Below the pieces are notes generated by a model. That model searched no databases. It was given only the letters and a program-made list of their open reading frames with translations, and was not told the DNA's origin. Positions 17,693-53,035 of a stretch of DNA of 53,162 bases are shown piece by piece. Origin of the DNA: Actinotalea fermentans ATCC 43279 = JCM 9966 = DSM 3133 (GTDB lineage: Bacteria; Actinomycetota; Actinomycetes; Actinomycetales; Cellulomonadaceae); NCBI GenBank assembly GCA_000767215.1, contig AXCX01000006.1, positions 1 to 53,162 on the forward strand, written 5' to 3'. Made by a program: the position numbers and the translations under genes. Every line of letters starts with the position of its first letter. Position 1 is the stretch's first letter.

Positions 17693-18561
17693 TGGCCGCC
17701 ACCGCCACGCGAGTCCCGCCGCCGTCGGTCGTTCGTGGGGGCCGCAGCAGCGCTCGGCGGGTCGCTCGCATGGCCCAGCTCCTGGTGCTCTCGGTCTTCG
17801 GCCTCGTGATGGTCGCCCCCCTCGCCTTCGCGCTCTACGTGTCGATGCTCGACCGAGCGGACTACCTCTCGTTGGTACCGCCGAGCCGACTGACGCTCGA
17901 CAACTACCGCTTCGTCTGGGAGAACGCGCCCGTCGGGCGCTGGTACCTGAACACCATCCTGGTCACGGCGCTCGTCGTCGGCGGTGCCGTCGTGGTCAAC
18001 ACCCTCGCGGGATACGCGCTCGCCCGGTTCCGTTTCCGTGGACGGCAGCTCGTCTTCCTGGCCGTCGTGGCGATCCTCATGGTGCCGCTCCAGGCGTACC
18101 TCATCCCCCTCTACCTCCAGGTGGTCGACCTGGGCTGGCTCAACACGATCCTCGCCCTGACCGTCCCCTTCATCGTGAACCCGCTGCTGATCTTCCTCAT
18201 GCGGCAGTCGTTCTCGACCTTGCCCAAGGAGCTCGACGAGGCCGCGGCTGTGGACGGTGCGGGACGCTTCTACACGTTCTTGCGGATCGGTGTTCCCCTG
18301 ACGCTCACGGGCGTGGCGACCCAGGCCATCCTGGCCGGGACGTGGACGTGGAACTCGTTCATGATCCCGGTGACCATGACGACGGAACCTGAGAAGTTTG
18401 TGCTCACCGTCGGGCTGAACAGCCTCCAGGCCCAGAACTACGTGCTCCCGACCGTCCAGATGGCCGGCGTGGTCCTGCTCACGATCCCCGTCGTCCTCAT
18501 GTTCGTCGTCTTCCAGCGCTTCATCGTCCCCAGCTTGGCCTCGACCGGGATCAAGGGGTGA
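17692..18561 (+). CDS. Sugar ABC transporter permease, MalG/UgpE type (operon B)
   Basis: A 289-aa partner permease with EAAAVDGAGRFYTFLRIGVP as EAA loop and about six membrane segments. Two adjacent in-frame ATG codons (17689 and 17692) compete. The second has better spacing from AAGGAGG (17681-17687) and is chosen. Its stop overlaps the GTG of the next gene, so all of operon B after the hairpin is tightly coupled. Confidence 0.92.
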   Translation: MAATATRVPPPSVVRGGRSSARRVARMAQLLVLSVFGLVMVAPLAFALYVSMLDRADYLSLVPPSRLTLDNYRFVWENAPVGRWYLNTILVTALVVGGAVVVNTLAGYALARFRFRGRQLVFLAVVAILMVPLQAYLIPLYLQVVDLGWLNTILALTVPFIVNPLLIFLMRQSFSTLPKELDEAAAVDGAGRFYTFLRIGVPLTLTGVATQAILAGTWTWNSFMIPVTMTTEPEKFVLTVGLNSLQAQNYVLPTVQMAGVVLLTIPVVLMFVVFQRFIVPSLASTGIKG

Positions 18562-23085: not shown

Positions 23086-23844
23086 CTACGCGCCCGCGAT
23101 CGTCGAGCCCCGGACCACGACGTGGACCGGGACCGCTTCGATCCCCTGGGCAGGGCGCCCGTTGATGGCGTCGACCAGTCGCTGCGCGGCGATCCGACCG
23201 AGGGTCTTGAAGCTCATGTCGACGCTCGTCAACTGGGGTCGTGCGCCCGAGGTCATGATCTCCCAGTTGTCGAAACCCATGACGGCGACGTCCCGTGGGA
23301 CGGCAGCGCCGCGCTCATGGAGTGCGTCCAGAGCGCCACGGGCGATCTGGTCGCTGCCGCACAGCAGAGCGTCCACGTCCGGCGCGTCGTCGAGGGTCGC
23401 GTGCGTCGCCGCCCTTCCCCACGCCTCCGTCCAGCTCCCGTACCGGACGGGTCCGACCTGCTCAAGCCCGGCGGCCGCGAGCGCGCTCGCGACGCCGAGC
23501 GCGCGGTCCTGCGCGGCGGTGTAGTGCACGTCGCCGGAGATGTGGGCGATCCGACGCCGACCGACGGAGACCAGATGTTCCACCGCGAGCGACCCGGCGC
23601 TGACGTTGTCCGGGACGATGCTGCAGTCCTCCGGGTCCTCGGAGGGCGCGTACGCGTACACGACGGGAACGGCGAGGTCGCGGCCGAGCGACGGCCGGGG
23701 GTCGGTCTTCGAGCCGACCACGATGAGGCCGTCCACCCGCCGGCCGAGGAGCGCCTTGAGGTGGTACTGCTCCCGGATGGCGTCCTCGCGCGCGTCACAC
23801 AGGAACACGGACATCTGCCCGGCGCCGAAGGCGTCCTCCGCGCC
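23086..23844 (-). pseudogene. LacI-family regulator fragment lacking the DNA-binding domain
   Basis: The minus strand encodes about 253 residues of a LacI effector domain, from GAEDAFGAGQMSVFLCDAR to the stop at 23086. It is closely similar to the regulator at 12230. Homology stops abruptly at 23844-23845; the ~75 residues holding the helix-turn-helix and hinge are absent. On the other side, a plus-strand hydrolase-like gene begins within about 6 bases. The junction therefore looks like a deletion that removed the regulator's 5' end, the shared promoter region and possibly the first codons of the neighbour. The fragment cannot bind an operator and has no start codon. Confidence 0.85.
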
Positions 23845-23850
23845 CTGCGG

Positions 23851-26007
23851 GTGTCGCCGTTTGGCGGCGGTGTTCGGCTGGAGTCCGACGGCGACGTCGT
23901 CGCGACCTGCGACGCACCGGTGCGCGTCCTCGCGGAGGGCGATGCGCCGATAGCCATGGGCTACGCCACGACGACCGACGGGCCGGACGTTGTCGGCGAG
24001 GCTGAGGTCACCCGGGTCGGCGCTGTGGTCCGGGTCGTGGACGTCTGGGCGCTCGCGTCGGACGGCGTCACCCTTACGCGCCGGCTCACCGTCCAGCCAC
24101 ACGGACCTGCGTCGGGGGCGGTCCACGTCGGGCTCGACCTGGAGCTCCCGGGCGTGCGGCCGAGGTACTTCGCGCCCGGCATGGCCTACGCGCCCGGCCA
24201 GTGGGCCCGCGGGGGCTGCTTCACCTACGCGGACCATCGGCTGGCGTACCCCGTCGTCGCAGCCCACGTCGGTGAACGAGGGGCCGTCCTGTCCCTCGAG
24301 CGCCAGAGCCTCGCCACGTACGACGCCGCGCCCGAGCGGCGCCCCGGGCAGACGGTGTACCGGCAGCGGACCGATGTCGGATCGGTCGGCTTCAGGGCCG
24401 GCGACCGGGCGGCCCTCTGCGCCGCCTGGCCGTACGCGGAGGTCGACGAGTCGGCGATGCTGGACGCGCAGCGCAGCCCCGCGGTGGCGCTGCACCCGGT
24501 CGGGGACGGCCTCGACGTCGTCGTCCGGTACCGGCTCCGCCTGCTTCCGGCCGCGGACTACGTGTCCGCCGTCCGAGGCGTCTTCGGTGCCGTCGTCGCC
24601 GCCGTCGCTCCGGAGCCGAGCCCGCTGCCGGTCTCGCTCGAGGAGAGCATCGCGCTCCGCCTGGACTCCGCGGCGAAGACGTACACCCGCTTCGCCGACG
24701 GCTTTGCAGGGTTCGTCCTCAACGTCGACCCGGATCGCGGCTACGCCTCGCAGGCGAAGGCGTTCGGCGCGTCGTTCGCCGACCACCACATGGACGGGTC
24801 CCGCGAGATCCTCGAGTTCGGGTTCACCGGCCGACAGCTCAACATCGCGGCGATGCTCGCCAGGCGTTCACCCCGCCAGTGGCGCGACCGCGCCGCTGCG
24901 GTCGTCGACGGGTTCGTCGAGCGGATGACGACCCCGTCGGGCTGGGTGCACACCCTCTGGGACGCGGGCCGCGGGCGCCCACTCTTCGCCTGCGGTGATC
25001 CGAGCGGGACGGTGATGCACTACCTCGGCCGCTCCGACGCACCTGGCACCTACACGCGGATGATGTGCGAGGCCGGCTCGGACCTCCTGCTCAACGTCGA
25101 CCTGCGGGCGCGGGACGACGTCGTCCGAGGGCGGTGGTGGGCGGCGGCCGTCCGACTCGCGGAGTTCCTCGTCAGGGTCCAGGAGCCCGACGGCGCCTGG
25201 TACCGGGCCTATGCGCCCGACGGCTCCCCCCTGACGGGTGACTGGTTGGGCGATGCAGGCAGCGGCGGCAAGAGCGCCACCGGCACCGTCGTCCCGTTCC
25301 TGCTCGATGTTGCAGCCCGGGCGGATGACGGGGCGCGATACATCGCCGCCGCCCGCCGCGCAGCTGGCTACATCCTCGCGGAGCAGACGGCGTCAGACGA
25401 GTACCGCGGCGGCACGCTCGACAACCCGAACGTGGTGGACAAGGAGGCCGCGTTCATCGCCATGCGGGCGCTGCTGGCCGTGCATCGTCACGACCCGGAC
25501 CCCGCGCTCCTCGAGGGCGCGCGACGTGCCGCCGTCCTTGCCGTGACCTGGCACAGCATCTGGGAGGTGCCAGCGGTGCCCGGCACACGGCTGGCCACGG
25601 AGCGGGTCCGCTCCGTGGGCTGGGGAGGCATCAACCCGGTCTGGGGCGTCGGCGTCACCGACATCTACTCCCTCTTCTTCCTGGCGGACCTGCACGAACT
25701 CGCCGGCCTCGTCGGCGACCAGCTCTTCGCCGAGGTCGCCCGGCTGTCCGCGCACTCGTCCCTGCAGATCCTCGCCGTGCCGCACGACCGGCACGGGCTG
25801 GCGGACGCCGGGATGCAGCCCGAAGGCATCTCCTTCTGTCCCCAGGGCGTCGACGACGGCCTCATCGCCAAGGGCGACACCTGGGGCGGCCTGGCCTGGC
25901 CCTACACCGCAGGAACATTCGCGCTCGAGCGCTATCTCGAGGCGTGCGCGCGCGATCGGAAGTCCCCCGAGCACGACCGAGCGAGACCAACGGAGGTTTG
26001 GCAATGA
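23851..26007 (+). CDS. Uncharacterised hydrolase-like protein, paralogue 3 (5' end at a deletion junction)
   Basis: About 718 aa, of the same subgroup as the protein at 18558. It keeps Tyr401-x-Arg403-x3-Glu407 (TYTRMMCE), EPDGAWYRAYAPDGSPL, GGTLDNPNVVDKEAA and the C-terminal QPEG...FCPQG segment. GTG 23851 is the most plausible start because the protein then aligns almost from its N-terminus with paralogue 2, but there is no ribosome site and the truncated LacI gene ends 6 bases away. A longer forward frame into that gene is only its antisense. At most about 15 residues may be lost. Its own promoter has apparently been deleted. Confidence 0.8.
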   Translation: MSPFGGGVRLESDGDVVATCDAPVRVLAEGDAPIAMGYATTTDGPDVVGEAEVTRVGAVVRVVDVWALASDGVTLTRRLTVQPHGPASGAVHVGLDLELPGVRPRYFAPGMAYAPGQWARGGCFTYADHRLAYPVVAAHVGERGAVLSLERQSLATYDAAPERRPGQTVYRQRTDVGSVGFRAGDRAALCAAWPYAEVDESAMLDAQRSPAVALHPVGDGLDVVVRYRLRLLPAADYVSAVRGVFGAVVAAVAPEPSPLPVSLEESIALRLDSAAKTYTRFADGFAGFVLNVDPDRGYASQAKAFGASFADHHMDGSREILEFGFTGRQLNIAAMLARRSPRQWRDRAAAVVDGFVERMTTPSGWVHTLWDAGRGRPLFACGDPSGTVMHYLGRSDAPGTYTRMMCEAGSDLLLNVDLRARDDVVRGRWWAAAVRLAEFLVRVQEPDGAWYRAYAPDGSPLTGDWLGDAGSGGKSATGTVVPFLLDVAARADDGARYIAAARRAAGYILAEQTASDEYRGGTLDNPNVVDKEAAFIAMRALLAVHRHDPDPALLEGARRAAVLAVTWHSIWEVPAVPGTRLATERVRSVGWGGINPVWGVGVTDIYSLFFLADLHELAGLVGDQLFAEVARLSAHSSLQILAVPHDRHGLADAGMQPEGISFCPQGVDDGLIAKGDTWGGLAWPYTAGTFALERYLEACARDRKSPEHDRARPTEVWQ

Positions 26008-29052: not shown

Positions 29053-29089
29053 CGCCGTGGCATCGCCCTCTCACCGCCTAGGAGCACGT

Positions 29090-39774: not shown

Positions 39775-40872
39775 TCAACTGGAGTGCCCAGCGGGCGCAG
39801 ACAGCGCGACGCCGTCCATGGTCGAACGGTACCCAAGGGCGGTCGCTGAGGACATCGCACGACTCGGCGGTGCGGTCGACTCGTTGACCAGAAGTCGGGT
39901 GACGAGCTGGATGTGGCGGGACTCCGGCGGGTTGCCCCGTGCACTCTCGACGATCATCCGAACCGCCATTCGCCCCATATCGGCAAGGGGCTGGAAGACC
40001 GTCGTCAAGCGCGGCGTGGTCCATGAAGCCTGTGGGATGCCGTCGTAGCCGGTGACCGACAAGTCCTCAGGGATCCGCAAGCCCAGGGAGCGTGCAGCTT
40101 CGATGACTCCGATCGCGATCTCGTCGTTGGCGGCGACCAGTGCCGTGGGACGGTTCTCGAGTCCGAGCAGTGGCGGAGCCGCCGACCGGCCGAACTCCAC
40201 GCTGAAGTCCCCGTTCGTCTCGATCGAGTCGTCGAGCGGAATGCCGGCGGACTGGAGCGCCGCACGGTACCCGTGCAGGCGGTCCGTCGACGCCTCCGAC
40301 TCCGGCGGCCCACCGACCCAGCCGATGCGCCGATGACCGAGTCCGATGAGGTGCTCCGTGGCGGCCTTGGCGCCCGCCCAGTTTGTGCCGCCGATCGTCA
40401 TCCAGTCGGCCGGCTGCACCTCCGACGGGTCGATCACCACGACGGGCAAGTTCGCTTGGGCCTCGAGCAGCCCGATGCTGCGCATGCCGTAGGTGATGGC
40501 GACGATGCCGATACAGCCGAGCGGCAAGGACTTCTCGGGCGCGTCGTCGTCCGTGTGCGGGCCGATCCCGAACCGCACGACGACGTCGGCGCCCTGAGAC
40601 CGTCCCGCCGCGACCATGCCGTGCAGGAGGGTCGCCGTGTAGACCGTCAGGATCCCGTCGGTGAGAACGAGGACCTGAGGCATCTGGGCGGCGTGGGCCC
40701 GCGCGGCCGGGTTGCGGTAGCCGACGGAATCGATCGCACGGATGACCCTCGCCCGCGTGCTGGCCGCCACGTCGCGGTGCCCGTTGAGCACCTTCGAGAC
40801 CGTGGCCATCGAGACGTTCGCCTGGGCTGCCACATCGGCCAGGGTTGGACGAGCGCCCACCGGGACTCCCAT
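39775..40872 (-). CDS. LacI-family transcriptional regulator, divergent from operon E
   Basis: A 365-aa regulator. The helix-turn-helix is PTLADVAAQANVSMATVSKV (residues ~8-27), then a hinge and an effector domain (VVIDPSEVQPADWMTIGGTN, GHRRIGWVGG, GYDGIPQASW). It is distinct from the other LacI proteins in the window. It is transcribed away from operon E. Two GAAA/TTTC palindromes (40886 and 40999) lie in the shared promoter region, suggesting repression of operon E and of itself. The ATG at 40872 gives the standard N-terminus. Confidence 0.93.
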   Translation of the reverse strand: MGVPVGARPTLADVAAQANVSMATVSKVLNGHRDVAASTRARVIRAIDSVGYRNPAARAHAAQMPQVLVLTDGILTVYTATLLHGMVAAGRSQGADVVVRFGIGPHTDDDAPEKSLPLGCIGIVAITYGMRSIGLLEAQANLPVVVIDPSEVQPADWMTIGGTNWAGAKAATEHLIGLGHRRIGWVGGPPESEASTDRLHGYRAALQSAGIPLDDSIETNGDFSVEFGRSAAPPLLGLENRPTALVAANDEIAIGVIEAARSLGLRIPEDLSVTGYDGIPQASWTTPRLTTVFQPLADMGRMAVRMIVESARGNPPESRHIQLVTRLLVNESTAPPSRAMSSATALGYRSTMDGVALSAPAGHSS

Positions 40873-41077: not shown

Positions 41078-42385
41078 ATGCCACGCCGAACCAGGAAGTA
41101 CCTCGCGGTCTCCCTTGCCCTCTCGCTCACCGGTGTTCTGGCCGGTTGCTCAGGGGCTGAGTCCGCCGACTCGGACGCGATCGAGCTCGAGTTCTGGAAC
41201 CCGGAGGCCGACGAGGCCGTCATCTCCGTGCTCGAGACGATGATCGAGAAGTACGAGGCGGAGAACCCGAACGTCAACGTCAACCTCGTGACAGTGCCGT
41301 GGTCAGACATCTTCACCAAGTGGCAGGCCGCGCTCCAGGGCGGCAACGCGCCCGACGTCACTCTCGGCTCGGCGGCCTTCGCGGCGTCGCTCCAGGAGCA
41401 GGGCGTCCTCCTCCCGTTGAATGACGTCGTCGAGGCGATCGGCGGTGAGGAGGCGTGGGCGGACACCGCGTCGTCCCTGGTCGAGTTGAGCAAGACGCCC
41501 GACGGCGAGTACTTCGCGCTGCCCTACTCCACCAACTCCGTTGTGCTCTGGTACAACAAGCCGATGTTCGAGGCTGCCGGCCTCCAGCCGCCGACCACCT
41601 GGGACGAGCTCGAGGCGGCCGCCGCGGCGCTGACACACGACGACCAGTACGGGATCCTCATCCCGTCGTCGAAGAGCTATGTGACCACCCAGAGCCTGTA
41701 CAGCATGATCCTGGCCAACGGTGGCGACCTGGTGGACCGGAACGACCCGGACACGGTGACGTTCGACGCCCCCGAGGCCGTCGAGGCACTCGAGTTCTAC
41801 TCCTCCCTCGCGCAGTACTCCCCACCCGGCGCCGGGGGCTATGACCGGCCCGAGGCGCAGGCCGCGATGACGACGGGCAAGCTCGGCATGTTCGTCTACG
41901 GCAGCTGGATGCAGGGCGCGCTCGAGGCGGCCGGTGCTGACGTCGCTGAGCAGTTCGGCGCAGTCCCCGTGCCGTCCAACGGCGGCGCCGGGGCGTTCAT
42001 GGGCAACGTGTCGCTCTACGCCTTCAACACGACGGAGCATCCGGAGGAGGCCCGCGACTTCCTCGCATACCTGCTCGACCCGCAGGCATACGAGCAGTTC
42101 GTGCTCATCAACCCCGCTTCGTTCGTCCCCGTCATCGACGCGGTGCACGAGAGCGAGACGTACCAGACGAACGAGAAGGTCGTCGCTGCCGGGGAGCTGC
42201 TCGCCGCGGTTGGCACGACTCTCCCCGACGCCTGGGTGTTCGGCCTGCCGAATCCGCACGCCGGAGAGTGGGAGAGCCTCAACCTCGTCGCGCAGGCGGC
42301 GACCGCCGTGATCGAGCAGGGCGAGGACCCGCAGGCGGCCGCGACGCGGATCGCCGACGAGATGCGTGAGTCGATCGGCAACTGA
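41078..42385 (+). CDS. Sugar ABC transporter solute-binding lipoprotein (operon E)
   Basis: A 435-aa family 1 binding protein. Basic N-terminus MPRRTRKY, a hydrophobic stretch and lipobox GVLAGC with Cys24. The mature protein has typical features (VNLVTVPWSDIFTKWQAALQ, LPYSTNSVVLWYNKPMFEAA). It would deliver its ligand to the permeases at 42454 and 43425. With GH43 and three family paralogues downstream, the ligand is probably an arabinose- or xylose-containing oligosaccharide, but this is inferred. A hairpin follows the stop. Confidence 0.92.
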   Translation: MPRRTRKYLAVSLALSLTGVLAGCSGAESADSDAIELEFWNPEADEAVISVLETMIEKYEAENPNVNVNLVTVPWSDIFTKWQAALQGGNAPDVTLGSAAFAASLQEQGVLLPLNDVVEAIGGEEAWADTASSLVELSKTPDGEYFALPYSTNSVVLWYNKPMFEAAGLQPPTTWDELEAAAAALTHDDQYGILIPSSKSYVTTQSLYSMILANGGDLVDRNDPDTVTFDAPEAVEALEFYSSLAQYSPPGAGGYDRPEAQAAMTTGKLGMFVYGSWMQGALEAAGADVAEQFGAVPVPSNGGAGAFMGNVSLYAFNTTEHPEEARDFLAYLLDPQAYEQFVLINPASFVPVIDAVHESETYQTNEKVVAAGELLAAVGTTLPDAWVFGLPNPHAGEWESLNLVAQAATAVIEQGEDPQAAATRIADEMRESIGN

Positions 42386-42453: not shown

Positions 42454-43425
42454 ATGACCGCCAATGCCGCGCTGCGCGAGCGCCCTCGCGCCGCAGGGCC
42501 GCGCCCTGACGCGGGCCGCGGATCGCACACCAGGCGCCGGGGGCGCAACGGGCGCCGGGACCTCATCGTGAGCGTCGCTCTGCTGGTCCCGGCGGCCGCC
42601 GTGATCGTCCTGCTCATGGGCGTGCCGCTGGCCACCGTCGTCGCCGACAGCTTCACGGACCGCAGTTTCCTGCGGCCGGTCGCGGAGTTCGTCGGCCTGG
42701 AGAACTACAGCGAGTTGCTCGGCGACCCGGCGTTCTGGCAGACGCTGGGCCGCTCGCTCCTGTGGACCGGCGCGTCCGTCGTCCTCCAGATCGCGCTCGG
42801 TCTGGCCTTCGCCATGCTGCTCAACCAGCGGTTCCGGGGGCGAGGGCTGCTTCGTGGCCTCTTCCTGCTCCCGTGGGTGACGCCCGTCGTCGTCGTCGCC
42901 CTCATCTGGAAGTGGATGCTCAACGACCTCTACGGCGTCATCAACGGGTTGCTCGGGACCGTCAACCCTGCCTGGGGCGACCTGGCCTGGTTCTCCGACC
43001 AGTCCCTGGCGCTCGGGACGGTCATCGGCGTCAACGTCTGGCGCGGCGTGCCCTTCACCATGATCATCCTGCTCGCCGGGCTGCAGAGCGTGCCGAAAGA
43101 GCTCGTCGAAGCCGCGTCGGTCGACGGTGCGGGCCGGCTCCGCACCTTCCTCAACGTCACCCTGCCGCACCTGCGAGGCATCCTCCTCACGGTCGCGATG
43201 ATCTTCACGATGTTCAACTTCAACAACTTCGACCTCGTCTACCTGGGCACGAGGGGCGGGCCGGCGGACCGGACGATGATCCTCCCGGTCAAGACCTACG
43301 ACGTGGCCTTCAACGGCCTGCAGGTCGGAGAGGCCGGCGCGTGGGCGGTCCTCACGCTCATCACCATCGCGCTCATCGCCGGCATCTACTTCGCGTACAT
43401 GCGGCGTGCGGAGAGGAAGTACTGA
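42454..43425 (+). CDS. Sugar ABC transporter permease, MalF/UgpA type (operon E)
   Basis: A 323-aa inner-membrane permease. A ~40-residue arginine-rich cytoplasmic tail leads into the first segment (LIVSVALLVPAAAVIVLLMG). The EAA loop is EAASVDGAGRLRTFLNVTLP, and NFNNFDLVYLGTRGGPA is a MalF-type motif. The ATG follows CGGAGGAC. It overlaps the next permease by one base. Confidence 0.92.
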   Translation: MTANAALRERPRAAGPRPDAGRGSHTRRRGRNGRRDLIVSVALLVPAAAVIVLLMGVPLATVVADSFTDRSFLRPVAEFVGLENYSELLGDPAFWQTLGRSLLWTGASVVLQIALGLAFAMLLNQRFRGRGLLRGLFLLPWVTPVVVVALIWKWMLNDLYGVINGLLGTVNPAWGDLAWFSDQSLALGTVIGVNVWRGVPFTMIILLAGLQSVPKELVEAASVDGAGRLRTFLNVTLPHLRGILLTVAMIFTMFNFNNFDLVYLGTRGGPADRTMILPVKTYDVAFNGLQVGEAGAWAVLTLITIALIAGIYFAYMRRAERKY

Positions 43426-44261
43426 TGGCACGGTCGGTTCTCGCCCGCGTCAGCCCGCGGGCCGCCCTGTGGCTCGCCATCGTGACGGCCACGATCTACG
43501 TCACGTTCCCGTTCTACTGGCTGCTCATCTCGTCGGTGACGCATCCCGCTGAGCTGTTCACCGGTGACCTGGTGCCCTCGCGCTTCACGCTCGACAGCTA
43601 CGGCCAGCTGTTCGCGGCGTCGCCCGTGCTCACCTGGGTCGGCAACAGCGTCCTCGTCGCGGTCGCCGTCACCTCGCTCACTGTCGTGGTGTCCGTGATG
43701 GGCGCCTACAGCCTCGCGTTCTTCGACACGCGGCTGGGCCAGGCGGCCGGTCGGCTCATCCTGTTCACCTACATGTTCCCGGGCGTCGTCATCGTCGTAC
43801 CCGCCTATCGGATCCTCAGCCAGATGGGTCTCGTCGACAGCGTCGCCGGCCTCGTGCTCGTCGAGCTCGTGCTCACAGTGCCGTTCTGCATCTGGATGCT
43901 CCGGAGCTTCTTCATCCAGATCCCCAAGGCGCTGTTCGAGGCTGGTCGGGTCGACGGCGCCTCGCACCTGCGCGTGCTGTGGAGTGTCATGCTGCCGATC
44001 GCGCGCCCGGGCGTCATCGTCATTGCCGTCTTCTCGTTCATCTTCTCGTGGAACGAGTACCTCTTCCCGCTGGTGCTCGTGAACTCGGACGCGGACAAGA
44101 CCCTGCCGCTCGGCGTCGCGGGGTTCATGGGCAACCTGACGGTGGAATGGGGACCGCTGCTCGCCTCCGGCGTCGTCACCGTGCTGCCGGTCCTCGTGCT
44201 GTTCCTCTTCCTGCAGCGGTACCTCGTCGAGGGTCTCATGGTCGGGGCGGTGAAGGGGTGA
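43425..44261 (+). CDS. Sugar ABC transporter permease, MalG/UgpE type (operon E)
   Basis: A 278-aa partner permease. The EAA loop is degenerate at the third position (EAGRVDGASHLRVLWSVMLP), and FSWNEYLFPLVLV is the MalG-like motif near the C-terminus. The ATG shares a base with the previous stop (TGATG), and its own stop overlaps the GTG of the GH43 gene, giving a fully coupled permease-hydrolase segment. Confidence 0.92.
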   Translation: MARSVLARVSPRAALWLAIVTATIYVTFPFYWLLISSVTHPAELFTGDLVPSRFTLDSYGQLFAASPVLTWVGNSVLVAVAVTSLTVVVSVMGAYSLAFFDTRLGQAAGRLILFTYMFPGVVIVVPAYRILSQMGLVDSVAGLVLVELVLTVPFCIWMLRSFFIQIPKALFEAGRVDGASHLRVLWSVMLPIARPGVIVIAVFSFIFSWNEYLFPLVLVNSDADKTLPLGVAGFMGNLTVEWGPLLASGVVTVLPVLVLFLFLQRYLVEGLMVGAVKG

Positions 44262-45865
44262 CCGAGGTGCGCACCTTCACCAACCCGGTCATCCCGGGGT
44301 TTCACCCGGACCCCAGCATCTGCCGCGTCGGGGGCGAGTACTTCCTCGTGACGAGCTCGTTCGAGTACTTCCCGGGCCTCCCGATCTTCACGAGCCGGGA
44401 CCTCGTCTCGTGGCAGCCGCTCGGCCACGTGCTCGACCGGGAGAGTCAACTCGACCTGACGCGGGCGCCGGCGTCCGGCGGGATCTTCGCGCCGACCATC
44501 CGGCACCACGACGGGCGTTTCTACGTGACCGCCACCAACGTGTCGGACCGCGGCCACTTCATCGTCCACGCGGAGGATCCGGCCGGCCCCTGGTCCGACC
44601 CGGTGTGGGTGGACCAGAACGGCATCGACCCGTCGCTGTTCTTCGACGAGGGACACGTCTACTTCACGTCGAACATCGAACCGGACCCCGCGGGACCCCA
44701 TGTCGCAGATCCCCACTTCGAGCGCGGCATCCAGCAGTCCTTGGTGGACCCGCTGACGGGCGCTGTGCTGCAGGAGCCGCGGTTCATCTGGGGTGGCACC
44801 GGTGGTCGGTACCCGGAGGCGCCGCACCTGTTCCGGCGCGGTTCCTTCTACTACCTGGTCATCTCCGAAGGGGGGACGGAGTACGGGCACATGGTGACCG
44901 TCGGGCGCTCGACGTCGCCGTGGGGACCGTTCGCGGCCTCGCCGCACGGACCTATCGTGAGCCATCGGAGCATCGTCAGCCCTTTTCAGGCCGTCGGTCA
45001 CGCCGACCTCGTCACCCTGCCGAACGGCGACTGGTGGATGGTCTGCCTCGGGGTGCGCCCGGTCGGTCAGTGGCCGAGGCACCTCCTCGGCCGGGAGACC
45101 TTGCTGGCCGCCGTGCGCTGGACGCCGGACGGGTGGCCGATCGTCGGCGAGCGAGCAGTGATCGAAGTCGACCAGACGCGCCCTGCTCTGCCCGCTGCGC
45201 CACCGCCCCGGCACGTCGTGCGCGACGACTTCGACGCCGCCACCCTCGGGCCGGAGTGGGCCTTCGTCAGGCGGCCGATGGCCCCGGAGGCGATCCTCGC
45301 ACGCCCGGGTTGGCTGACCCTGTCGCCTCGCACCGGCCTCGCGGAGCGCTTCCCGTGCTTCGTCGGACGTCGCCAGCAGCACTACGACTTCGTCGCGGAG
45401 ACGCGCCTCGTCCTCGACGCGCGGGAGGACGGGGACGAGGCCGGCATCGCCGTGCGGATGAACGAGGAGCACTTCTACGCCCTGGGGTTGCGCCGTGCCG
45501 GCGCGGCCATGGAGGCGGTCCTCAGGACGCGGCTCGGGCGGCTCGACATCACCTCCGTGGTGGGCGTCGTCGAGGGCCCGGATGTCGTGATCAGCGTCGA
45601 GGGCAGCGCCGACTCCTACACCTTCAGCGTGAGCGACAGCTCCGGGCGGGTCGCGCGCACTCAGCCGCGTGACGCGAAGTTCCTCAGCGCAGAGTTCGCG
45701 GGCGGCTTCACCGGCGTCTTCGTCGGCATGTACGCAGCGACGTCCAGCGCAGGGTCGGGCACCGTCGCGCGCTTCGACTGGTTCGACTACCGGCCGGCCC
45801 CCCGCGCGTCCTCGCACGGGCAGCTCGACCGCGAGGACTCGTGTCACGTCGCAGCAGGCAGCTGA
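44258..45865 (+). CDS. GH43 beta-xylosidase / alpha-L-arabinofuranosidase
   Basis: A 535-aa glycoside hydrolase family 43 enzyme. The N-terminal five-bladed beta-propeller carries the catalytic triad: base Asp18 in FHPDPSICR, pKa modulator Asp124 in GIDPSLFF and acid Glu187 in RYPEAPHLF. A C-terminal beta-sandwich (residues ~335-535) matches the accessory domain of GH43 xylosidases. No signal peptide, so it acts in the cytoplasm on imported xylo- or arabino-oligosaccharides. The GTG overlaps the permease stop. Which sugar it removes cannot be decided from sequence alone. Confidence 0.92.
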   Translation: MTEVRTFTNPVIPGFHPDPSICRVGGEYFLVTSSFEYFPGLPIFTSRDLVSWQPLGHVLDRESQLDLTRAPASGGIFAPTIRHHDGRFYVTATNVSDRGHFIVHAEDPAGPWSDPVWVDQNGIDPSLFFDEGHVYFTSNIEPDPAGPHVADPHFERGIQQSLVDPLTGAVLQEPRFIWGGTGGRYPEAPHLFRRGSFYYLVISEGGTEYGHMVTVGRSTSPWGPFAASPHGPIVSHRSIVSPFQAVGHADLVTLPNGDWWMVCLGVRPVGQWPRHLLGRETLLAAVRWTPDGWPIVGERAVIEVDQTRPALPAAPPPRHVVRDDFDAATLGPEWAFVRRPMAPEAILARPGWLTLSPRTGLAERFPCFVGRRQQHYDFVAETRLVLDAREDGDEAGIAVRMNEEHFYALGLRRAGAAMEAVLRTRLGRLDITSVVGVVEGPDVVISVEGSADSYTFSVSDSSGRVARTQPRDAKFLSAEFAGGFTGVFVGMYAATSSAGSGTVARFDWFDYRPAPRASSHGQLDREDSCHVAAGS

Positions 45866-45912: not shown

Positions 45913-48210
45913 ATGTCGGCAGTCACCCTCCAGGTCGACGGCTCCCCGGAGTCCGTCGTCGGCCTCCGCCGAGGAAGGGCCACGATGGTGGTCCATCGGC
46001 CGATCGTCGTCGTCCCGACACGCGGTGCGCCGATGGCCACGCAGTACGACACCTTCGACGCCTCCGGCGAGACCGTCCGTTGCACGGCGACCGTCGAGGT
46101 GCCGGGAGAGCTCGCCCTCGACATCGTCGACATCTACCGGGTGGTCGCGCCGGATGCCGTCGCGTTGACGCGGCGGGTGGAGGTCAGGCAGGCCCGGGAG
46201 GGCGCCGGCATGCGGCTGGAGCTTGAGGCGGCGGCGACGAGCCCAGGCGGCGGGGGCGCCTGGCAGTACTTCCTGCCATGCACCCTCTACAACCGCAACG
46301 ACTCGGACGGGGACGGGGTGGAGGACTACCTCGGCACGTTCGACCAGGCGCTCCGTGACGACAAGAACGGCGTGCTGGCTGTGCTGACCCGGTGCGAGGT
46401 GACGGGTTCGACCTTCTCGCTCGCGCGCACGTCGGCCCCCACGTCCGACGCCGCGCTGACCCGCGAGGAGCTCCTCGGGCGGCGCGTGCTTCAGCCCACG
46501 GACATCGGCTCCCTGGGGGTCATCACCCGCCCGGACGGCTCTACGGTCCTCCACGCCGAGTACCCGTTCCGGGAGGAGCGGACCTTCTGCCTCGACATGG
46601 CCGGCACAGGCTGGGAGGCGTTCTGCCCGGTCGAGACGGGGCAGGTGATCGAGCTCGCCTACGAGCTCCGCGTCGACTCGACGGGCGACCTCACGGAGGC
46701 GATCTGGCGGCTCTTCGAGCGCCAGCGGAGGCTCCTGGGCACTAGCCGCCCCGATCCGGGGGTGACGCTCGACGACGCCCTCGAGCACCGCCAGCTGGCG
46801 ACCCAGCTGAGCTACCGCCGGTGGACCGCCGAGGAGAACCCCAAGGAGCCGGCCGGCTTCCTGGTGCACTTCTCCCCGCGGACCGGCGACGTGCAGGGGT
46901 CCCTCATCGAGTTCGGGTTCTCCGGCGACCAGACGCTCGTCGCGTGGGCACAGCTGGAGTACGGCTATCGAACCCGGGTCCCGCTCTACCGCGATCGGGC
47001 GCGATCAGTGATCGATTTCTTCGTCCGGCACTGCCAGCTCGACAACGGGATGCCTCAGGGCATCTACGACCCCGTCCACGACCGGTTCGTGTACTGGTTC
47101 ACGGGCATCCTCATGCCGTTCCAGTACGCCGAGGACGAGCAGGACGTCCGCCGCTTCGTCGGCAAGCAGGTCGCCGAGGCGTTGATGCCCGTGGCGCGGG
47201 AGCTACGGGGGGTCGAAGGCAACTACACGCGAACGATGTGCGAGTCGTTCTGGCCCCTGCTCCTGGCCTACGAGCTGGAGCGTGCGCACGCCGTCGAGCA
47301 CGAGGACTGGCTCCAGGCCGCGTGTCGCTTCGGCGAGTTCCTCCTGCGCAGTCAGGCGAGCGACGGCTCCTGGTACCGGGCCTACAGCACGAGCGGCCAG
47401 GGCCTCACGTCGCCCGCGAGCTGGTTCGGCGCCTCGGAGGTGGAACAGAAGAGCGGAACCATCTTCCCCGTCCCCGTCCTCGTGGCCCTGCATCGGATCA
47501 CGGGGGACGGTCGATACCTCGACGCGGCGCGCAAGGCGGCCGACTACATCATCGACGCCCAGGTCGAGCCGACGGTGTACGTCGGAGGGCTGAACGACAC
47601 CACGCACGTCAAGTCCGTGAAGACGGACGCCGTGGGCGTGATGTTCCTGATGCGATCGCTCCTGACCGTCCACGAGGCGACCGGCGAGCCGCGCTACCTC
47701 GCGGCTGCGGTCAAGGCGGCCAAGGTGCTCTGCTCATGGGTGTACCTGTGGGACGTCCCGATGCCCGAGGGAAGCCTGCTGGCGCGAGCGGGGTTCCGGT
47801 CGACCGGCTGGGCGGGGTGCGACGTGATCGCCTCGGGCAGCTACCTCGACAACGAGTTCCTCGAGTTCACCGCCGACCTCGTCCGGGTCGCCGAGCTGTC
47901 GGGCGAGCGGGCGCTCTTCGAGGTCGCCGAGCTGGTCGAGTACGGGATGCAGCATGCCCTCTCGACCCCGGAGAACGACCACGGCTACGTGGCGCCCGGT
48001 CTCCAGTGCGAGGGGGTGCTCACCTCGTACTGGCTCAGCGCCCCCGACGTCACGGCCTTCTCCGGCGCGGTGAACAAGGTCAAGGGCGACGACAACGACA
48101 CGTGCAACGCGCTGACCAACGCGCAGGCCGCGTACGGCCTCTACCTGCTCGCCGACAGGTACGGCACGACGGAGTTCACCGAGATCCGGCGACGGCTCGG
48201 TTGGTCATGA
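45913..48210 (+). CDS. Uncharacterised ~770-aa hydrolase-like protein, paralogue 4 (first of tandem array)
   Basis: A 765-aa cytoplasmic protein of the six-member family. It has a beta-rich N-terminal ~270 residues with the calcium-loop-like DSDGDGVED (Asp130, 132, 134, 138) and DIGSLGV. The helical barrel part carries FTGILMPFQY, the Tyr438-x-Arg440-x3-Glu444 motif (NYTRTMCE), DGSWYRAY, GGLNDTTHVKS and GFRSTGW. The C-terminus reads QCEGVLTSYWLSAP and KVKGDDNDTCN. ATG 45913 follows AGGAGAG; a longer frame would invade the GH43 gene. It follows GH43 by 47 bases. A glycosidase role is inferred from fold features and context. Confidence 0.85.
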   Translation: MSAVTLQVDGSPESVVGLRRGRATMVVHRPIVVVPTRGAPMATQYDTFDASGETVRCTATVEVPGELALDIVDIYRVVAPDAVALTRRVEVRQAREGAGMRLELEAAATSPGGGGAWQYFLPCTLYNRNDSDGDGVEDYLGTFDQALRDDKNGVLAVLTRCEVTGSTFSLARTSAPTSDAALTREELLGRRVLQPTDIGSLGVITRPDGSTVLHAEYPFREERTFCLDMAGTGWEAFCPVETGQVIELAYELRVDSTGDLTEAIWRLFERQRRLLGTSRPDPGVTLDDALEHRQLATQLSYRRWTAEENPKEPAGFLVHFSPRTGDVQGSLIEFGFSGDQTLVAWAQLEYGYRTRVPLYRDRARSVIDFFVRHCQLDNGMPQGIYDPVHDRFVYWFTGILMPFQYAEDEQDVRRFVGKQVAEALMPVARELRGVEGNYTRTMCESFWPLLLAYELERAHAVEHEDWLQAACRFGEFLLRSQASDGSWYRAYSTSGQGLTSPASWFGASEVEQKSGTIFPVPVLVALHRITGDGRYLDAARKAADYIIDAQVEPTVYVGGLNDTTHVKSVKTDAVGVMFLMRSLLTVHEATGEPRYLAAAVKAAKVLCSWVYLWDVPMPEGSLLARAGFRSTGWAGCDVIASGSYLDNEFLEFTADLVRVAELSGERALFEVAELVEYGMQHALSTPENDHGYVAPGLQCEGVLTSYWLSAPDVTAFSGAVNKVKGDDNDTCNALTNAQAAYGLYLLADRYGTTEFTEIRRRLGWS

Positions 48211-48292
48211 ACGCCCACGACGCCCGCGATGCGAGGCGTCCACGGGGCGGCACCGGATGTCCCCTCCTCTCCGACTACAGGAAGTGAAACGC

Positions 48293-50614
48293 ATGGCTCT
48301 CCACCTGTCCTCCGCACCAAACGGCAACGGCAACGGCCTCGTGCTCCGCAGCGACGGCGCGGACGTCCTCGTCGCGCCCACCCCCGTACGACTGGCCACC
48401 AGCGACGGCGGTGCGGTGGCGCTGGGCTACGACACCGTCGAAGCCGACGGTGAAGGGACCCGCTGCCGGGTCGATGCCGCACTGGGCGACGGCACGCGCG
48501 TCCGCGTCGAGGACGTCTGGACGCCGTCCGAGCAGGGCGACGGCTTCCTCGTGGACCGGTCCATCACCGTCCTCGAGCCGGGCTCCGCCGCGGGCGTCCG
48601 CGCCGAGCTGCTCCTCGAGTCCTCGCTCGCCGCGGCCCAGGCGGACTGGCAGTTCTACGTCACCGGTGCCCTGTACAACCGGAACGACACCGACCTGGAC
48701 GGGCGCGAGGACTACCTCGGGGGCCACGTCCAGGAGTACCGCGACGACCGGAACGGCCACCTCGCCGTGCTGGCCTACCTGCCGACCACCCGCCAGGGTC
48801 TCTCGCTGGCCCGCACGAGCGTCCCGAGGTACGACGTCGCGCTCGACACCGACGAGCTCGCCAGTGGCGTGGTCGTGAAGGACTCCGACATCGGGTCGCT
48901 CGGCGTCGTCTTCGCCGAGGAGAGCCCCCTCGTCCTGCGTGCGGGCTACCCCTTCGGCGAGGAGCGGACCTTCAGCCTGGAGACGAGCGGCCGGGCCTGG
49001 GCCGGCTACCTGCCGATCGAGCGGGGCCGTGCCGCCGGCGTGCAGTACGAGGTGCGACTCTTCAGCGCCGAGGACCTCACCGAGGCGATCTGGGACGTGA
49101 CCCAGCGCCAGATGCTGCGCCTGGGCACGCGCCCCGCGCCCCTGCCCCTGCCGCTCGAGGAGCTGGAGCAGCATCGCTTCCTCCTGACCCAGCTCTACTT
49201 CAAGTCGTGGGAGTCGGAGGAGGACGAGCGCCGGCCGGCCGGCTACCTCACGCACTTCTCGCCCCGGAGCGGCAAGACCCTGGGATCTCTCATCGAGTAC
49301 GGGTTCACCGGCGCGCAGTCGCTGCACGCCCTGAACGCCATCCGCCGAGGCCACCGGGACGAGGTCCCGCTCTGGATCAACCGCGGGCGTCAGGTCCTCG
49401 ACTTCTTCGTTCGCGAGTTCCAGAGCCCGAACGGCTTCTCGCAGGGCATCTACGACCCGCTGCACCAGCGGTTCGTGACCTGGTTCACGGGCATCCTCAT
49501 GCCCTTCCAGTACTCCGACGACGAGGCCACCCTCAAGACGTTCCTGGGCAGCCAGATCACCCGAGCACTCGGGCCGATCGCCGCCGAGCTCCGCGAGGTG
49601 CCGGGCAACTACACGCGGACGATGTGCGAGTCGGCCTACCCGCTCTTGCTCGCCTACGAGGAGGAGCTGCGCCACGGTACCGAGCACCCCGACTGGCTGG
49701 CCGCGGGGGAGGTGTTCGGAGCGTTCCTCCTCATGACGCAGGGGGCCGACGGCTCGTGGCACCGCGGGTACTCGCCCGAGGGCGACCCGCTCACGCACCC
49801 TGTCGAGTGGTTCGGGAGCAGTCGAGTGGAGCGGGGATCCGGCACGATCTTCCCCGTCGAGGTCCTGGAGGCTCTCCACCGGATCACCGGGAGGGACGAC
49901 TACAAGGCGGCTGCCCTGAAGGCGGCGGACTACATCGCCGAGACCTTCGTGCCGGGGGTGCTGTACTGCGGCGGGCTCAACGACACGACGCACATCAAGT
50001 CGGTCAAGATCGACTCGGTGGGCGTGATGTTCGCCATGCGCTCCCTCATCCGCGCATATCGGCTCGGCGGCGACGAGCGCCACCTGGCGGCCGCCGTCAA
50101 GGCGGCGAAGATCCTCACCTCGTGGCTCTTCCTCTGGGACGTCCCGTTCCCCGACGGAAGCCTCCTGGCGAGCGGTGGGTTCCGGACGACGGGGTGGGCG
50201 GTCTGCGACGCGATCCCCGGCGGGAGCTACGTCGACGACGAGTTCCTGGAGTTCCTCGGCGACACGCTCGACGTCGCCGTCGCCGGCGAGGTGCCGGAGC
50301 TGGTCGACGTCGTCGAGCTCGTCCTCAACGGCATGCAGTACGGGCTGTCGATCCCGGGGAACATGCTCGGTTACGTCGCGCCCGGGATCCAGTGCGAGGG
50401 CTACATGACGGCCTACTGGCTGAGCGCGCCCGAGGCCACCGCCTTCTCGGGGGCCGCCAGCAAGGTCAAGGGCGACGACAACGACACGTGCAACGGACTG
50501 GTCAACGCCCAGGCCCTGTACGGGCTCGATGCACTCCGTGACAAGTACGGCACCGTCGACTTCGGCGAGATCCGCCGACTCGCGCTCGAGCGGATGGGCA
50601 CCCAGACCCGCTAG
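48293..50614 (+). CDS. Uncharacterised ~770-aa hydrolase-like protein, paralogue 5 (second of tandem array)
   Basis: A 773-aa protein, by eye roughly two thirds identical to its neighbour at 50720 across the barrel. Motifs in order: YNRNDTDLDGREDYLGG (Asp132, 134, 136, 140), DIGSLGV, EYGFTGAQS, FTGILMPFQY, Tyr440-x-Arg442-x3-Glu446 (NYTRTMCE), DGSWHRGYSPEGDPL, GGLNDTTHIKS, GGFRTTGWAVCD and KVKGDDNDTCN. No signal peptide. The ATG follows AGGAAG, 82 bases after paralogue 4. A 14-bp hairpin after its stop could lower expression of the third copy. Function unknown; probably cytoplasmic glycosidase. Confidence 0.85.
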   Translation: MALHLSSAPNGNGNGLVLRSDGADVLVAPTPVRLATSDGGAVALGYDTVEADGEGTRCRVDAALGDGTRVRVEDVWTPSEQGDGFLVDRSITVLEPGSAAGVRAELLLESSLAAAQADWQFYVTGALYNRNDTDLDGREDYLGGHVQEYRDDRNGHLAVLAYLPTTRQGLSLARTSVPRYDVALDTDELASGVVVKDSDIGSLGVVFAEESPLVLRAGYPFGEERTFSLETSGRAWAGYLPIERGRAAGVQYEVRLFSAEDLTEAIWDVTQRQMLRLGTRPAPLPLPLEELEQHRFLLTQLYFKSWESEEDERRPAGYLTHFSPRSGKTLGSLIEYGFTGAQSLHALNAIRRGHRDEVPLWINRGRQVLDFFVREFQSPNGFSQGIYDPLHQRFVTWFTGILMPFQYSDDEATLKTFLGSQITRALGPIAAELREVPGNYTRTMCESAYPLLLAYEEELRHGTEHPDWLAAGEVFGAFLLMTQGADGSWHRGYSPEGDPLTHPVEWFGSSRVERGSGTIFPVEVLEALHRITGRDDYKAAALKAADYIAETFVPGVLYCGGLNDTTHIKSVKIDSVGVMFAMRSLIRAYRLGGDERHLAAAVKAAKILTSWLFLWDVPFPDGSLLASGGFRTTGWAVCDAIPGGSYVDDEFLEFLGDTLDVAVAGEVPELVDVVELVLNGMQYGLSIPGNMLGYVAPGIQCEGYMTAYWLSAPEATAFSGAASKVKGDDNDTCNGLVNAQALYGLDALRDKYGTVDFGEIRRLALERMGTQTR

Positions 50615-50625
50615 CCCCACCGAGC

Positions 50626-50659
50626 GGAGTGGGTGCCGGCCCCGACCGGCACCCACTCC
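50626..50659 (+). terminator. Strong hairpin between paralogues 5 and 6
   Basis: A perfect 14-bp stem (50626-50639 with 50646-50659) and 6-base loop follow the stop of paralogue 5, without a T-tract. It may end the main operon E message or reduce transcription of the last copy. Confidence 0.7.
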
Positions 50660-50719
50660 TCCCGCGGCGGCGTGACTCGCCCCAACCGACGTACCTCACC
50701 GACCACCTTGCGAGGAATC

Positions 50720-53035
50720 ATGGAGTTCGACGTCACGATGTCCCCTGCTGGCGTCGCCATCGCCGTCGTTCTTGACGGAGAGACCGTCGCGCGAGCCAGC
50801 GCGCCCGTCCGGGTCGAGACCACGGCGAAGGCGTCCGTGACGCTGAGCTACGACACGGTCGTGCGGGAGGGGGACCATCTCGTGGCGAGCGCCGCCGTCG
50901 TGACGGGTGACGGCTGCGAGGTGAACGTCGTCGATCGGTGGGAGCCCGGTCGCGACGGCACGTCCCTCGTGATCAGGCGGTCGTACGACGTCCGCTCCGC
51001 CGGCACGTGCACCGGCCTGCGCTGGGACCTGATCCTCGAGAGCGCCTTGCCGGCCGCGTCTGACGAATGGCAGCTCTTCATCTCGGGCAACCTCTACAAC
51101 CGCAACGACACCGACCGCGACGGTCGGGAGGACTACCTCGGCGGCGACGTGCACGAGTTCCGCGACGACCGGAACGGGCACCTCGCGGCTCTCGCCTACC
51201 TTCCGAACGCGGGCGTCGGGCTGAGTCTGGCGCGCACGAACGCACCCTCCCACGACGCCACGGTGACGGCGGACCAGCTGCGCGACGGCGCGGTCGTGGC
51301 CGAGTCCGACATCGGCTCGCTCGGCATCGCCGTCCTGCCGGAAGGCCCGCTCATCCTCCGGGCCGGGTACCCCTTCCGGGAGGAGAGGACCTACTGCCTC
51401 GACACCTCCGGCCGAGGCTGGGCCGGGTTCCTGCCCGTGACCGATGGACGTACCGGCACCGTTGTCTACGAGTTCCGGGTCGTGCGCGCTCGCGATCTCA
51501 CCGAGGCGATCTGGGACGTGTCGCGCCGCCAGTGGGACAACCTCAGGACGGCGCCGTCGCCGCTCCCGCTCCCGATCGAGCGGATCGAGGATCACAGGTT
51601 CGCCTTGACCCAGCAGTACTACCGGCAGTGGACCGCCGCCGAGGACCCGCGGGAGCCCGCCGGGTACCTCCTCCATTTCTCGCCACGGAACGGGCGCACC
51701 CTCGGCTCGTTGCTGGAGTTCGGGTTCACCGGTGCCCAGTCGCTGCTCGCCCTCGCCGCACTCCGTCGCGGCCACAGGGACGGCGTGCCGCTCTGGGTCG
51801 ACCGCGCGCGGCGGGTCAACGACTTCTTCGTCCGCGAGTGCCAGCACCCGAACGGCTTCGCCGACGGGCTCTACGACACCCAGACCGGCCAGTTCGTGCA
51901 CTGGTTCACGGGGATCCTCATGCCGTTCCAGTACGCGCAGGACGAGGAGGCGCTGCGCCGATACCTGGGCTCGCAGATGGTGGAGGCCCTCGGACCCGTG
52001 GCCGAGCGGCTCCGGGACGTCGCCGGCAACTACACGCGCACGATGTGCGAGGCCGTCCTCGCCGTCCTCCTGGGGTACGAGGAGGAGCGCAAGCACGGGG
52101 TGGGCCAGCCGGGGTGGCTGTCGGCCGGCGAGCGGTTCGGCACCTTCCTCCTCGCCACGCAGCGACCCGACGGGTCCTGGTACCGCGGTTACTCGCCCGA
52201 CGGGGAGCCGCTGACGGAGCCCGCGGAGTGGTTCGGCGCGAGCAGCCTCGAGCAGGGGTCCGGGACGATGTTCCCCGTTCCGGTCCTCGCGGCGCTGCAC
52301 CGCCTGACCGGGCGCGAGGAGTACCGGGCAGCAGCGCTGCGAGCCGCCGACTACATCGCTCGGACCTACGGGCCCGACGTCCTCTACTGCGGAGGGCTCA
52401 ACGACACTGCGCAGCTGAAGTCGGTCAAGGTTGACTCCACCGGTGTCCTCTTCGCGATGCGGTCGCTGATCACGGCCTATCGCCTCGGCGGGAAGCCGAG
52501 GCACCTCGAGGCCGCCGTTCGCGCGGCAAAGGTGGCCGCTTCCTGGATGTTCCTGTGGGACGTCCCGTTCTCCGAGGAGACGCTCCTCGCCCGTGCCGGG
52601 TTCAGGACGACCGGGTGGGTGGTGTGCGACGCAATCCCGGGCGGCTCGTACGTCGAAGACGTCTTCCTCGAGTTCGTCGGAGACGTACTCGCTGTCGCGA
52701 CCGAGGCAGGCGTTCCTGAACTGGTCGACGTCGCAGAGCTCGGTCTCGCGGGAATGCAGCAGGGCGTGTCGGTACCTCACGCGATGCTCGGCTATGCCGC
52801 TCCAGGGATCCAGTGCGAGGGCTACATGACGTCGTACTGGCTGAGCGCACCCGACCAGACGGCGTTCTCCGGGGCGGTGGGCAAGGTCAAGGGGGACGAC
52901 AACGACACCTGCAACGGCTTCGTGAACGCAGCTGCCTTCTTCGGCCTCGACGCCGTGCGCGACGCCTTCGGAACGCTGGACTTCTCGACGATCAAGCAGC
53001 TCGCGACGGCGCGACGGCGCCCTGTTCACGGCTAG
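50720..53035 (+). CDS. Uncharacterised ~770-aa hydrolase-like protein, paralogue 6 (third of tandem array)
   Basis: A 771-aa member of the family with all subgroup I signatures: YNRNDTDRDGREDYLGG (Asp130, 132, 134, 138), DIGSLGI, EFGFTGAQS, FTGILMPFQY, Tyr438-x-Arg440-x3-Glu444 (NYTRTMCE), DGSWYRGYSPDGEPL, GGLNDTAQLKS, GFRTTGWVVCD, KVKGDDNDTCN. It departs slightly from paralogue 5 where the conserved His of NDTTH is replaced (NDTAQ). ATG 50720 follows CGAGGA; the longer in-frame start lies within the hairpin region. It is the last gene before the recombinase copy at the window edge. Confidence 0.85.
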   Translation: MEFDVTMSPAGVAIAVVLDGETVARASAPVRVETTAKASVTLSYDTVVREGDHLVASAAVVTGDGCEVNVVDRWEPGRDGTSLVIRRSYDVRSAGTCTGLRWDLILESALPAASDEWQLFISGNLYNRNDTDRDGREDYLGGDVHEFRDDRNGHLAALAYLPNAGVGLSLARTNAPSHDATVTADQLRDGAVVAESDIGSLGIAVLPEGPLILRAGYPFREERTYCLDTSGRGWAGFLPVTDGRTGTVVYEFRVVRARDLTEAIWDVSRRQWDNLRTAPSPLPLPIERIEDHRFALTQQYYRQWTAAEDPREPAGYLLHFSPRNGRTLGSLLEFGFTGAQSLLALAALRRGHRDGVPLWVDRARRVNDFFVRECQHPNGFADGLYDTQTGQFVHWFTGILMPFQYAQDEEALRRYLGSQMVEALGPVAERLRDVAGNYTRTMCEAVLAVLLGYEEERKHGVGQPGWLSAGERFGTFLLATQRPDGSWYRGYSPDGEPLTEPAEWFGASSLEQGSGTMFPVPVLAALHRLTGREEYRAAALRAADYIARTYGPDVLYCGGLNDTAQLKSVKVDSTGVLFAMRSLITAYRLGGKPRHLEAAVRAAKVAASWMFLWDVPFSEETLLARAGFRTTGWVVCDAIPGGSYVEDVFLEFVGDVLAVATEAGVPELVDVAELGLAGMQQGVSVPHAMLGYAAPGIQCEGYMTSYWLSAPDQTAFSGAVGKVKGDDNDTCNGFVNAAAFFGLDAVRDAFGTLDFSTIKQLATARRRPVHG

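Follow-up and report, generated by a model that had tools for sequence, protein, structure and literature searches.

Three tandem genes, c4, c5 and c6, at the end of a sugar-import operon of Actinotalea fermentans ATCC 43279 on balance seem to represent a new carbohydrate-active family without a Pfam model that is rare in actinobacteria, with at least three co-inherited specificities in one import cassette, additional variants belonging to separate sugar-import operons within the same 53-kb region, and a branched side chain of plant origin, possibly carrying uronate, as the presumed target. We tentatively propose that c4-c6 form an undescribed cytoplasmic two-domain family that would act by acid/base hydrolysis, together with a glycoside hydrolase of family 43 (GH43), on an imported oligosaccharide with differing fine specificity. 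The window analyzed here is the whole stretch of 53,162 nucleotides of contig AXCX01000006.1 (positions 1 to 53,162, forward strand), from an assembly of 841 contigs. The three genes, each with an ATG start and without internal stops, are:

45913..48210, + strand: c4, paralogue of 765 amino acids, c4 lineage
48293..50614, + strand: c5, paralogue of 773 amino acids, the protein used for the structure model
50720..53035, + strand: c6, paralogue of 771 amino acids

The initial annotation had described three full-length frames arranged head to tail, and the exact gaps of 82 bases (c4-c5) and 105 bases (c5-c6) agree with it. Employing BLASTP, we aligned the three proteins over nearly their full length, as had also been stated, and c5 and c6 were indeed the most similar pair (62% identity over 767 amino acids, versus 52% for c4 with either; E printed as 0 in all comparisons). 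The similarity among c4, c5 and c6 is far above chance level.

The trio forms the end of a one-strand operon, as originally described. The order is sugar-binding protein (SBP)-permease-permease-GH43-c4-c5-c6, with a gap of 68 bases, two small overlaps and gaps of 47, 82 and 105 bases between successive genes. The genes accompanying the trio, all of which passed the Pfam cut-offs, are:

39775..40872, - strand: LacI-type regulator (LacI39775), divergent from the operon (PF00356, E 4.5e-14; PF13377, E 4e-35)
41078..42385, + strand: extracellular SBP of the importer, with an N-terminus that is lipobox-like by eye (PF01547, E 7e-48)
42454..43425, + strand: permease 1 of the ATP-binding cassette (ABC) importer (PF00528, E 2e-21)
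43425..44261, + strand: ABC importer permease 2 (PF00528, E 4e-17)
44258..45865, + strand: GH43 with a C-terminal GH43_C2 domain, the operon partner upstream of c4 (PF04616, E 5e-82; PF17851, E 3e-41)

The closest PDB relatives of this GH43 are the beta-xylosidase 5z5d and then the arabinofuranosidases BoGH43A/B.

BLASTP also placed three further genes of the window, c1, c2 and c3, in the family. The window thus holds six members, and the trio belongs to a larger expansion of the family. The additional members are:

3940..6249, + strand: c1, family member of 769 amino acids, 33-34% identical to the trio
18558..20708, + strand: c2, distant member of 716 amino acids, 23-26% identical, two of the three matches extending over just ~280 amino acids
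~23842..26007, + strand: c3, distant member, 26-30% identical; its open reading frame opens at 23122 and the start is provisional

Relatives of c1 (71-73%) were found in Puerhibacterium and Cellulosimicrobium, and a relative of c2 (49%) at locus L061, in a stretch that also carries a GH127 homologue.

We compared 17 aligned family members with profile libraries. For 16 members the Pfam cut-offs were printed, and none of these members reached one; the 17th, L014, was scanned only as a listing at E <= 0.1 without cut-offs. The best Pfam E-value over all 17 was 0.0058, to pectic acid lyase. The GH127 model PF07944 was listed at E <= 0.1 for one of the 17 (c4, E 0.0062), at 16 bits versus a gathering score of 24.9. 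None of c4, c5 and c6 reached an NCBIfam cut-off, and the best NCBIfam E-value over the 17 members, for which cut-offs were not printed, was 4.5e-4 for one member to class III LanKC; LanC-like domains are alpha-toroids too. Searched against the PDB, a 17-row profile gave weak matches, the best of them to alpha-toroid enzymes (GH76, pectate lyase and N-acylglucosamine epimerases; best E 2e-4). The GH76 match (profile E 2.2e-4) consisted of one 76-position stretch in the GG-loop region with a domain E-value of 0.05. The catalytic pair of GH76 is Asp-Asp, and this pair was not present in the aligned segment. As a route to solved structures, the sequence searches gave nothing useful. A description of the trio family was not found in the open-licence literature. 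Apparently, the family is undescribed, while its fold and the type of its cassette are of known kinds.

Based on a 17-sequence alignment, an AlphaFold2 model of c5 was generated with a predicted local distance difference test score (pLDDT) of 87 and a predicted template-modelling score (pTM) of 0.92. The model has strands from residue 3 to 258, linker helices and a helical toroid at ~340-770. The predicted plan is thus a galactose-mutarotase-like beta-sandwich plus an (alpha/alpha)6 toroid, as in GH94 and in polysaccharide lyase family 27 (PL27), and the model contains both parts of the PL27 architecture. Folded alone, the N-domain again reached a pLDDT of 87. In the VIA comparison, its matches, with a best Z of 16.8, were a galactosaminidase sandwich, PL26 (Z 16.3) and galactose mutarotases; the Foldseek E-values for this domain were modest (best 2.6e-4). 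The fold comparison covers the families appearing in the VIA lists. Judging from the models, the shared fold marks the architecture of glycan-active enzymes and shows no function.

The toroid alone resembled several enzyme families. The highest VIA scores were those of cellobiose 2-epimerases and their relatives (Z 23.6-25.5), which would fit sugar epimerases or isomerases of the N-acylglucosamine 2-epimerase fold. N-acylglucosamine and cellobiose 2-epimerases use two catalytic histidines, and no histidine was conserved in at least 19 of the 20 rows of our residue alignment, which disfavors this reading; the trio also has an additional N-domain, and the epimerase model PF07221 remained below its gathering score of 23.4 in the two of 17 members listed at E <= 0.1 (12.4 bits for c4 and 15.0 bits for L012). 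Epimerization is therefore a very remote prospect. GH76 alpha-1,6-mannanase (Z ~22) and unsaturated glucuronyl hydrolase (Z ~21.5; GH88) likewise share the toroid fold, but their chains are shorter (~340-380 amino acids in most rows) and gave no N-domain match.

Over both domains, the Foldseek matches included GH94 phosphorylases such as cellobiose phosphorylase 3qde (E 3.6e-9). GH94 and GH65 enzymes have the beta-sandwich plus (alpha/alpha)6 plan, so that c4-c6 might split the imported oligosaccharide with phosphate, and the probable cytoplasmic location of the trio would suit such a role. However, the full-length GH94 pairs superposed poorly (Foldseek TM-scores just 0.24-0.28, rmsd, the root-mean-square deviation, ~24-25), and the Pfam families listed for the 17 members at E <= 0.1 included no GH65 or GH94 model. 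We regard phosphorolysis as improbable.

To locate a candidate active site, we used a residue alignment of 20 rows that included the most distant members but neither L059, which nearly duplicates L014, nor the third copy of Mycetocola. In the c5 toroid, R442, R491, D564, D574, W611 and E702 were invariant in 20/20 rows, as were W468 and several residues of the N-domain; Y440 and W615 were present in 19/20 rows, and E446 and D486 in 18/20. By the helix borders of the model, most of these toroid residues, with R442, R491, D564, D574 and E702 among them, would lie in or beside loops at the same end of the toroid. The sites concerned, and a loop of the N-domain, are:

49610..49630, + strand: c5 Y440, R442 and E446, in the loop where an inner toroid helix begins (conserved in 19, 20 and 18 of 20 rows)
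49982..50014, + strand: c5 D564 and D574, candidate catalytic acids preceding helix 575-592 (20/20 rows)
50396..50398, + strand: c5 E702, candidate catalytic acid in a QCEG loop (20/20 rows)
46300..46326, + strand: EF-hand-like DSDGDGVED loop of c4, with a DxDxDGxxD pattern; possible Ca2+ site

The DxDxDGxxD loop occurs in the N-domain of c1, c4, c5 and c6, in a part with low confidence in the models, and presumably resembles an EF-hand-type Ca2+ loop; the pattern was not found in c2 and c3. The most hydrophobic N-terminal 15-mers of c4 and c5 had means of 0.85 and 0.86, showing no strong hydrophobicity, and in the c5 model the domain already opens with a strand at residue 3. With no obvious secretion signal in c4 or c5, the trio is predicted from sequence to be cytoplasmic.

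To date the paralogues, we used relatives from seven loci obtained in one scan with two peptide patterns. These belong to Mycetocola miduiensis, Humibacter albus, an uncultured Cellulomonas, Cellulomonas sp. 73-92, a Marmoricola metagenome-assembled genome, Puerhibacterium puerhi and Cellulosimicrobium cellulans. The relatives in the c4 clade (57-66%) came from Mycetocola, Humibacter, Cellulomonas sp. 73-92 and Marmoricola; those of c5 (70-73%) from Mycetocola, Humibacter and the uncultured Cellulomonas; and that of c6 (73%) from the uncultured Cellulomonas. In a first tree, c4 grouped with relatives of four other genomes (support 99/99) and c6 with one Cellulomonas copy (98/100). A second tree, including its constrained tests, was built without c2, c3, L061, L062, L063 and L059. 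Constraining c4, c5 and c6 to one clade was rejected by the approximately unbiased test (p-AU 5e-50), and a clade of c5, c6 and L010_b, a group defined with the tree already in view, was also rejected (p-AU 4e-6). Mycetocola and Humibacter have three near-full-length copies each (Humibacter also has one short partial match), which by tree comprise one c4 type and two c5/c6 types in either genome. A recent tandem triplication is rejected by the constrained trees and by the occurrence of relatives of the individual types in further genomes. Clearly, c4, c5 and c6 are old separate lineages, by vertical descent or joint transfer alike. Recent gene conversion was likewise rejected, judged without a formal test from the longest identical DNA runs between paralogues (23-35 bases).

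The initial annotation had further suggested that the three frames are retained by selection for different but related specificities, and had called for a comparison of synonymous and non-synonymous rates. These rates were computed and proved uninformative between the paralogues because synonymous sites are saturated: identity at four-fold sites was 0.46-0.48, which makes the dN/dS values of 0.42-0.67 untrustworthy. In all nine pairs computed, including all three paralogue pairs, pN was lower than pS. We then compared columns across type groups (five rows for c4, four for c5 and two for c6, with Humibacter_a outside all three types). The c5 group combines c5 with three rows that join it in the tree with weak support, and the grouping predates the third Mycetocola copy. 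Across the groups, 225 columns were identical and 39 were fixed differently. Thirty-one of these 39 type-specific positions lie in the toroid, 13 in the presumed active-face loops (c5 residues 339, 341, 447, 484, 567, 573, 576, 642, 647, 648, 650, 691 and 735) and 18 elsewhere, with loop borders drawn by hand from the helices of the c5 model. Examples of the differences in c4/c5/c6 are D/A/A at 341, H/H/Q at 567 and E/E/V at 650. Since 13 type-specific positions fall in these loops, the clefts of the paralogues are probably non-identical, although the loops are no hot spot. The earlier claim is thus partly supported: the retention of separate versions is backed by the rejected one-clade tree, the Mycetocola and Humibacter sets and the 13 positions, and the identity of the candidate catalytic acids and the lack of enrichment speak against the divergence in specificity.

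The genes around the relatives connect the family with GH43 and, in part, with the importer. A GH43 match was present in 4/5 genomes examined, and in all four the best one lay no more than 4 kb from a family gene; the Mycetocola and Humibacter sets lie near a close GH43 homologue. Homologues of LacI39775 (45-75%) occur in 3/5 stretches, and those of the SBP and both permeases (72-80%) in 2/5. The two complete cases are L056 and L068 (SBP 72-74%, permeases 74-80%, LacI39775-like regulator 75% and 58%). At L069 there is a LacI39775-like gene (45%) with an SBP only 23% alike, at L011 a GH43 and a c4 type stand beside other permeases (32-38%), and at L012 the c4 type is the sole recognised element.

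The trio set is uncommon. In Cellulomonadaceae, at least 23/200 genomes gave a match at E <= 0.001 and at least 6/200 (A. fermentans included) exceeded 900 bits; this search gave no match in the 18 other listed members of the genus of the window. Order-wide, at least 14/396 genomes matched at E <= 1e-10, mostly with a distant c2-like type or part of the protein, and in a phylum-wide draw at least 1/396 matched at E <= 1e-15, this being A. fermentans itself. All counts are lower bounds, as two candidates per genome were scored in the order and phylum searches and five or fewer in the family search. Because the set is rare and patchy, horizontal movement is suggested. Carriage on plasmids was rejected, tblastn with c5 giving no match at E <= 1e-5 among 72,556 plasmid records.

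According to our proposal, the importer would take a branched plant-derived oligosaccharide into the cell, where acid/base hydrolysis by each paralogue may release a particular kind of terminal residue, D564, D574 and E702 being the candidate catalytic acids. GH43 would alternate with the paralogues, removing the xylose or arabinose units in between, and the three paralogues would be kept because their fine specificity differs. On this reading, c4-c6 are probably exo-glycosidases that cooperate with GH43. The family thereby becomes a concrete set of unnamed proteins whose likely substrates are narrowed down by the accompanying importer, GH43 and regulator. Should it prove active, the known families of carbohydrate-active enzymes would grow by one, and its three co-kept types would be a natural experiment on how related clefts divide one substrate.

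Several observations weigh against this proposal. By sequence, no link to any characterised enzyme was found, so that catalysis itself is only presumed. The N-terminus of c6 is moderately hydrophobic (15-mer mean 1.69), which weakens the case for a cytoplasmic location. The Marmoricola genome gave no GH43 match despite its c4-type gene, and in the Cellulomonas sp. 73-92 genome the matching GH43 is reported with one internal TGA. The c5 lineage is less firmly placed than the others: its union with three other rows received support of 86/79, was not resolved once a further row had been included, and reached 77/60 in a repeat of that build. c4, c5 and c6 share their candidate catalytic acids, and type-specific positions were not enriched in the face loops (13/225 loop versus 18/269 other columns of the 494 in the toroid, a weak test with two c6 rows only). 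Finally, the best Foldseek match of c5 over both domains was a lyase, not a hydrolase: PL27 5no8 (BACCELL_00875), at E 1.2e-11.

The last of these observations introduces the strongest rival on chemistry, since PL27 is the closest two-domain structure and two arginines are invariant. According to PMC8377490, PL27 enzymes act on gum arabic, from which a beta-elimination at glucuronate sets rhamnose free. In analogy, c4-c6 might cleave next to a uronic acid, with the carboxylate neutralised by the invariant arginines (R442 and R491, in all 20 rows) or by Ca2+ held in the DxDxDGxxD loop of c1 and c4-c6, and with Y440 as the base. The VIA score for c5 against 5no8 (Z 22.7; 479 residues aligned, rmsd 6.3) and the likeness of the N-domain to PL26 are in line with such chemistry. 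This L-rhamnose-alpha-1,4-D-glucuronate lyase is one of three characterised PL27 members and has a structure in the PDB. However, its identity to c5 is 10-12% with an rmsd of 6-10, an agreement in architecture only, and neither phmmer with c6 nor hmmsearch with the 17-row profile retrieved a PL27 chain from the PDB set at E up to 10. Y440 is replaced in 1/20 rows, no unsaturated-uronate gene was found among the subset of window genes scanned with Pfam, and the trio genes, unlike the PL27 reference, sit with an ABC importer. We consider a lyase activity unlikely, if worth keeping in view.

The identical candidate acids, the absence of enrichment in the face loops and pN below pS in all three paralogue pairs would also be expected if the copies were redundant, kept for dose, with their sequence differences due to drift. 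Against this, the lineages have stayed distinct across several genera and families, one c4 and two c5/c6 types are retained in both Mycetocola and Humibacter despite a different gene order, and no identical tract longer than 35 bases joins the paralogues. Redundancy is thus a doubtful explanation, slightly less credible than the lyase. Hydrolysis with GH43 and a differing fine specificity remains our tentative proposal.

The gap between c5 and c6 contains a further element:

50626..50659, + strand: perfect 14-bp hairpin with a 6-base loop and without a T run (-44 kcal/mol over 96 nt)

Equal stability was reached in 0/200 shuffles (z -3.5), and the hairpin was absent from the terminator-scan listing. 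As the 105-base gap carries this structure, c6 may be expressed differently, uncoupled from c4-c5.

Neighboring genes of two relatives deserve mention. In Mycetocola, a GFO/IDH/MocA oxidoreductase gene and an aldo/keto reductase gene (L008 12404-14471, - strand) follow the c4-type gene, which hints at redox steps on the released sugar. In the uncultured Cellulomonas, the c6-type gene stands beside homologues (L056 1425-5403) of the LacI regulator (80%; 31619-32704 in the window) and the simple-sugar-type binding protein (68%; 32961-34145) of the operon neighboring that of the trio; for this reason, the two operons seem linked.

Elsewhere in the window, three GH127 genes lie near importer genes (7445-9403, 13308-15287 and 29057-31078, + strand; pairwise identity 77%, 54% and 56%), the first recognised by similarity rather than Pfam. 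Directly after c2, a frame of 764 amino acids (20705-22999, + strand) without a Pfam match at E <= 0.001 or a BLASTP match to c4-c6 may be another unnamed carbohydrate enzyme. A frame of ~258 amino acids (~38875-39651, + strand) after a GH35/42-like gene matched neither Pfam at E <= 0.1 nor NCBIfam. Directly after the third GH127 gene lies a phage-integrase-type C-terminus (31075-31773, - strand; PF00589, E 2e-13), and ~60 bases of this integrase end recur at 90% identity at the end of the window after c6 (53104-53162, - strand) and on another contig of the same genome (C266:2-62). At L005, a truncated relic of the c6 3' end (131-469, - strand; 91% over residues 660-771) adjoins the same integrase end together with rpiB-type and ROK-family genes. 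The recurrence of the integrase end after c6 and on C266 hints that sugar blocks were moved or shuffled by site-specific recombination.

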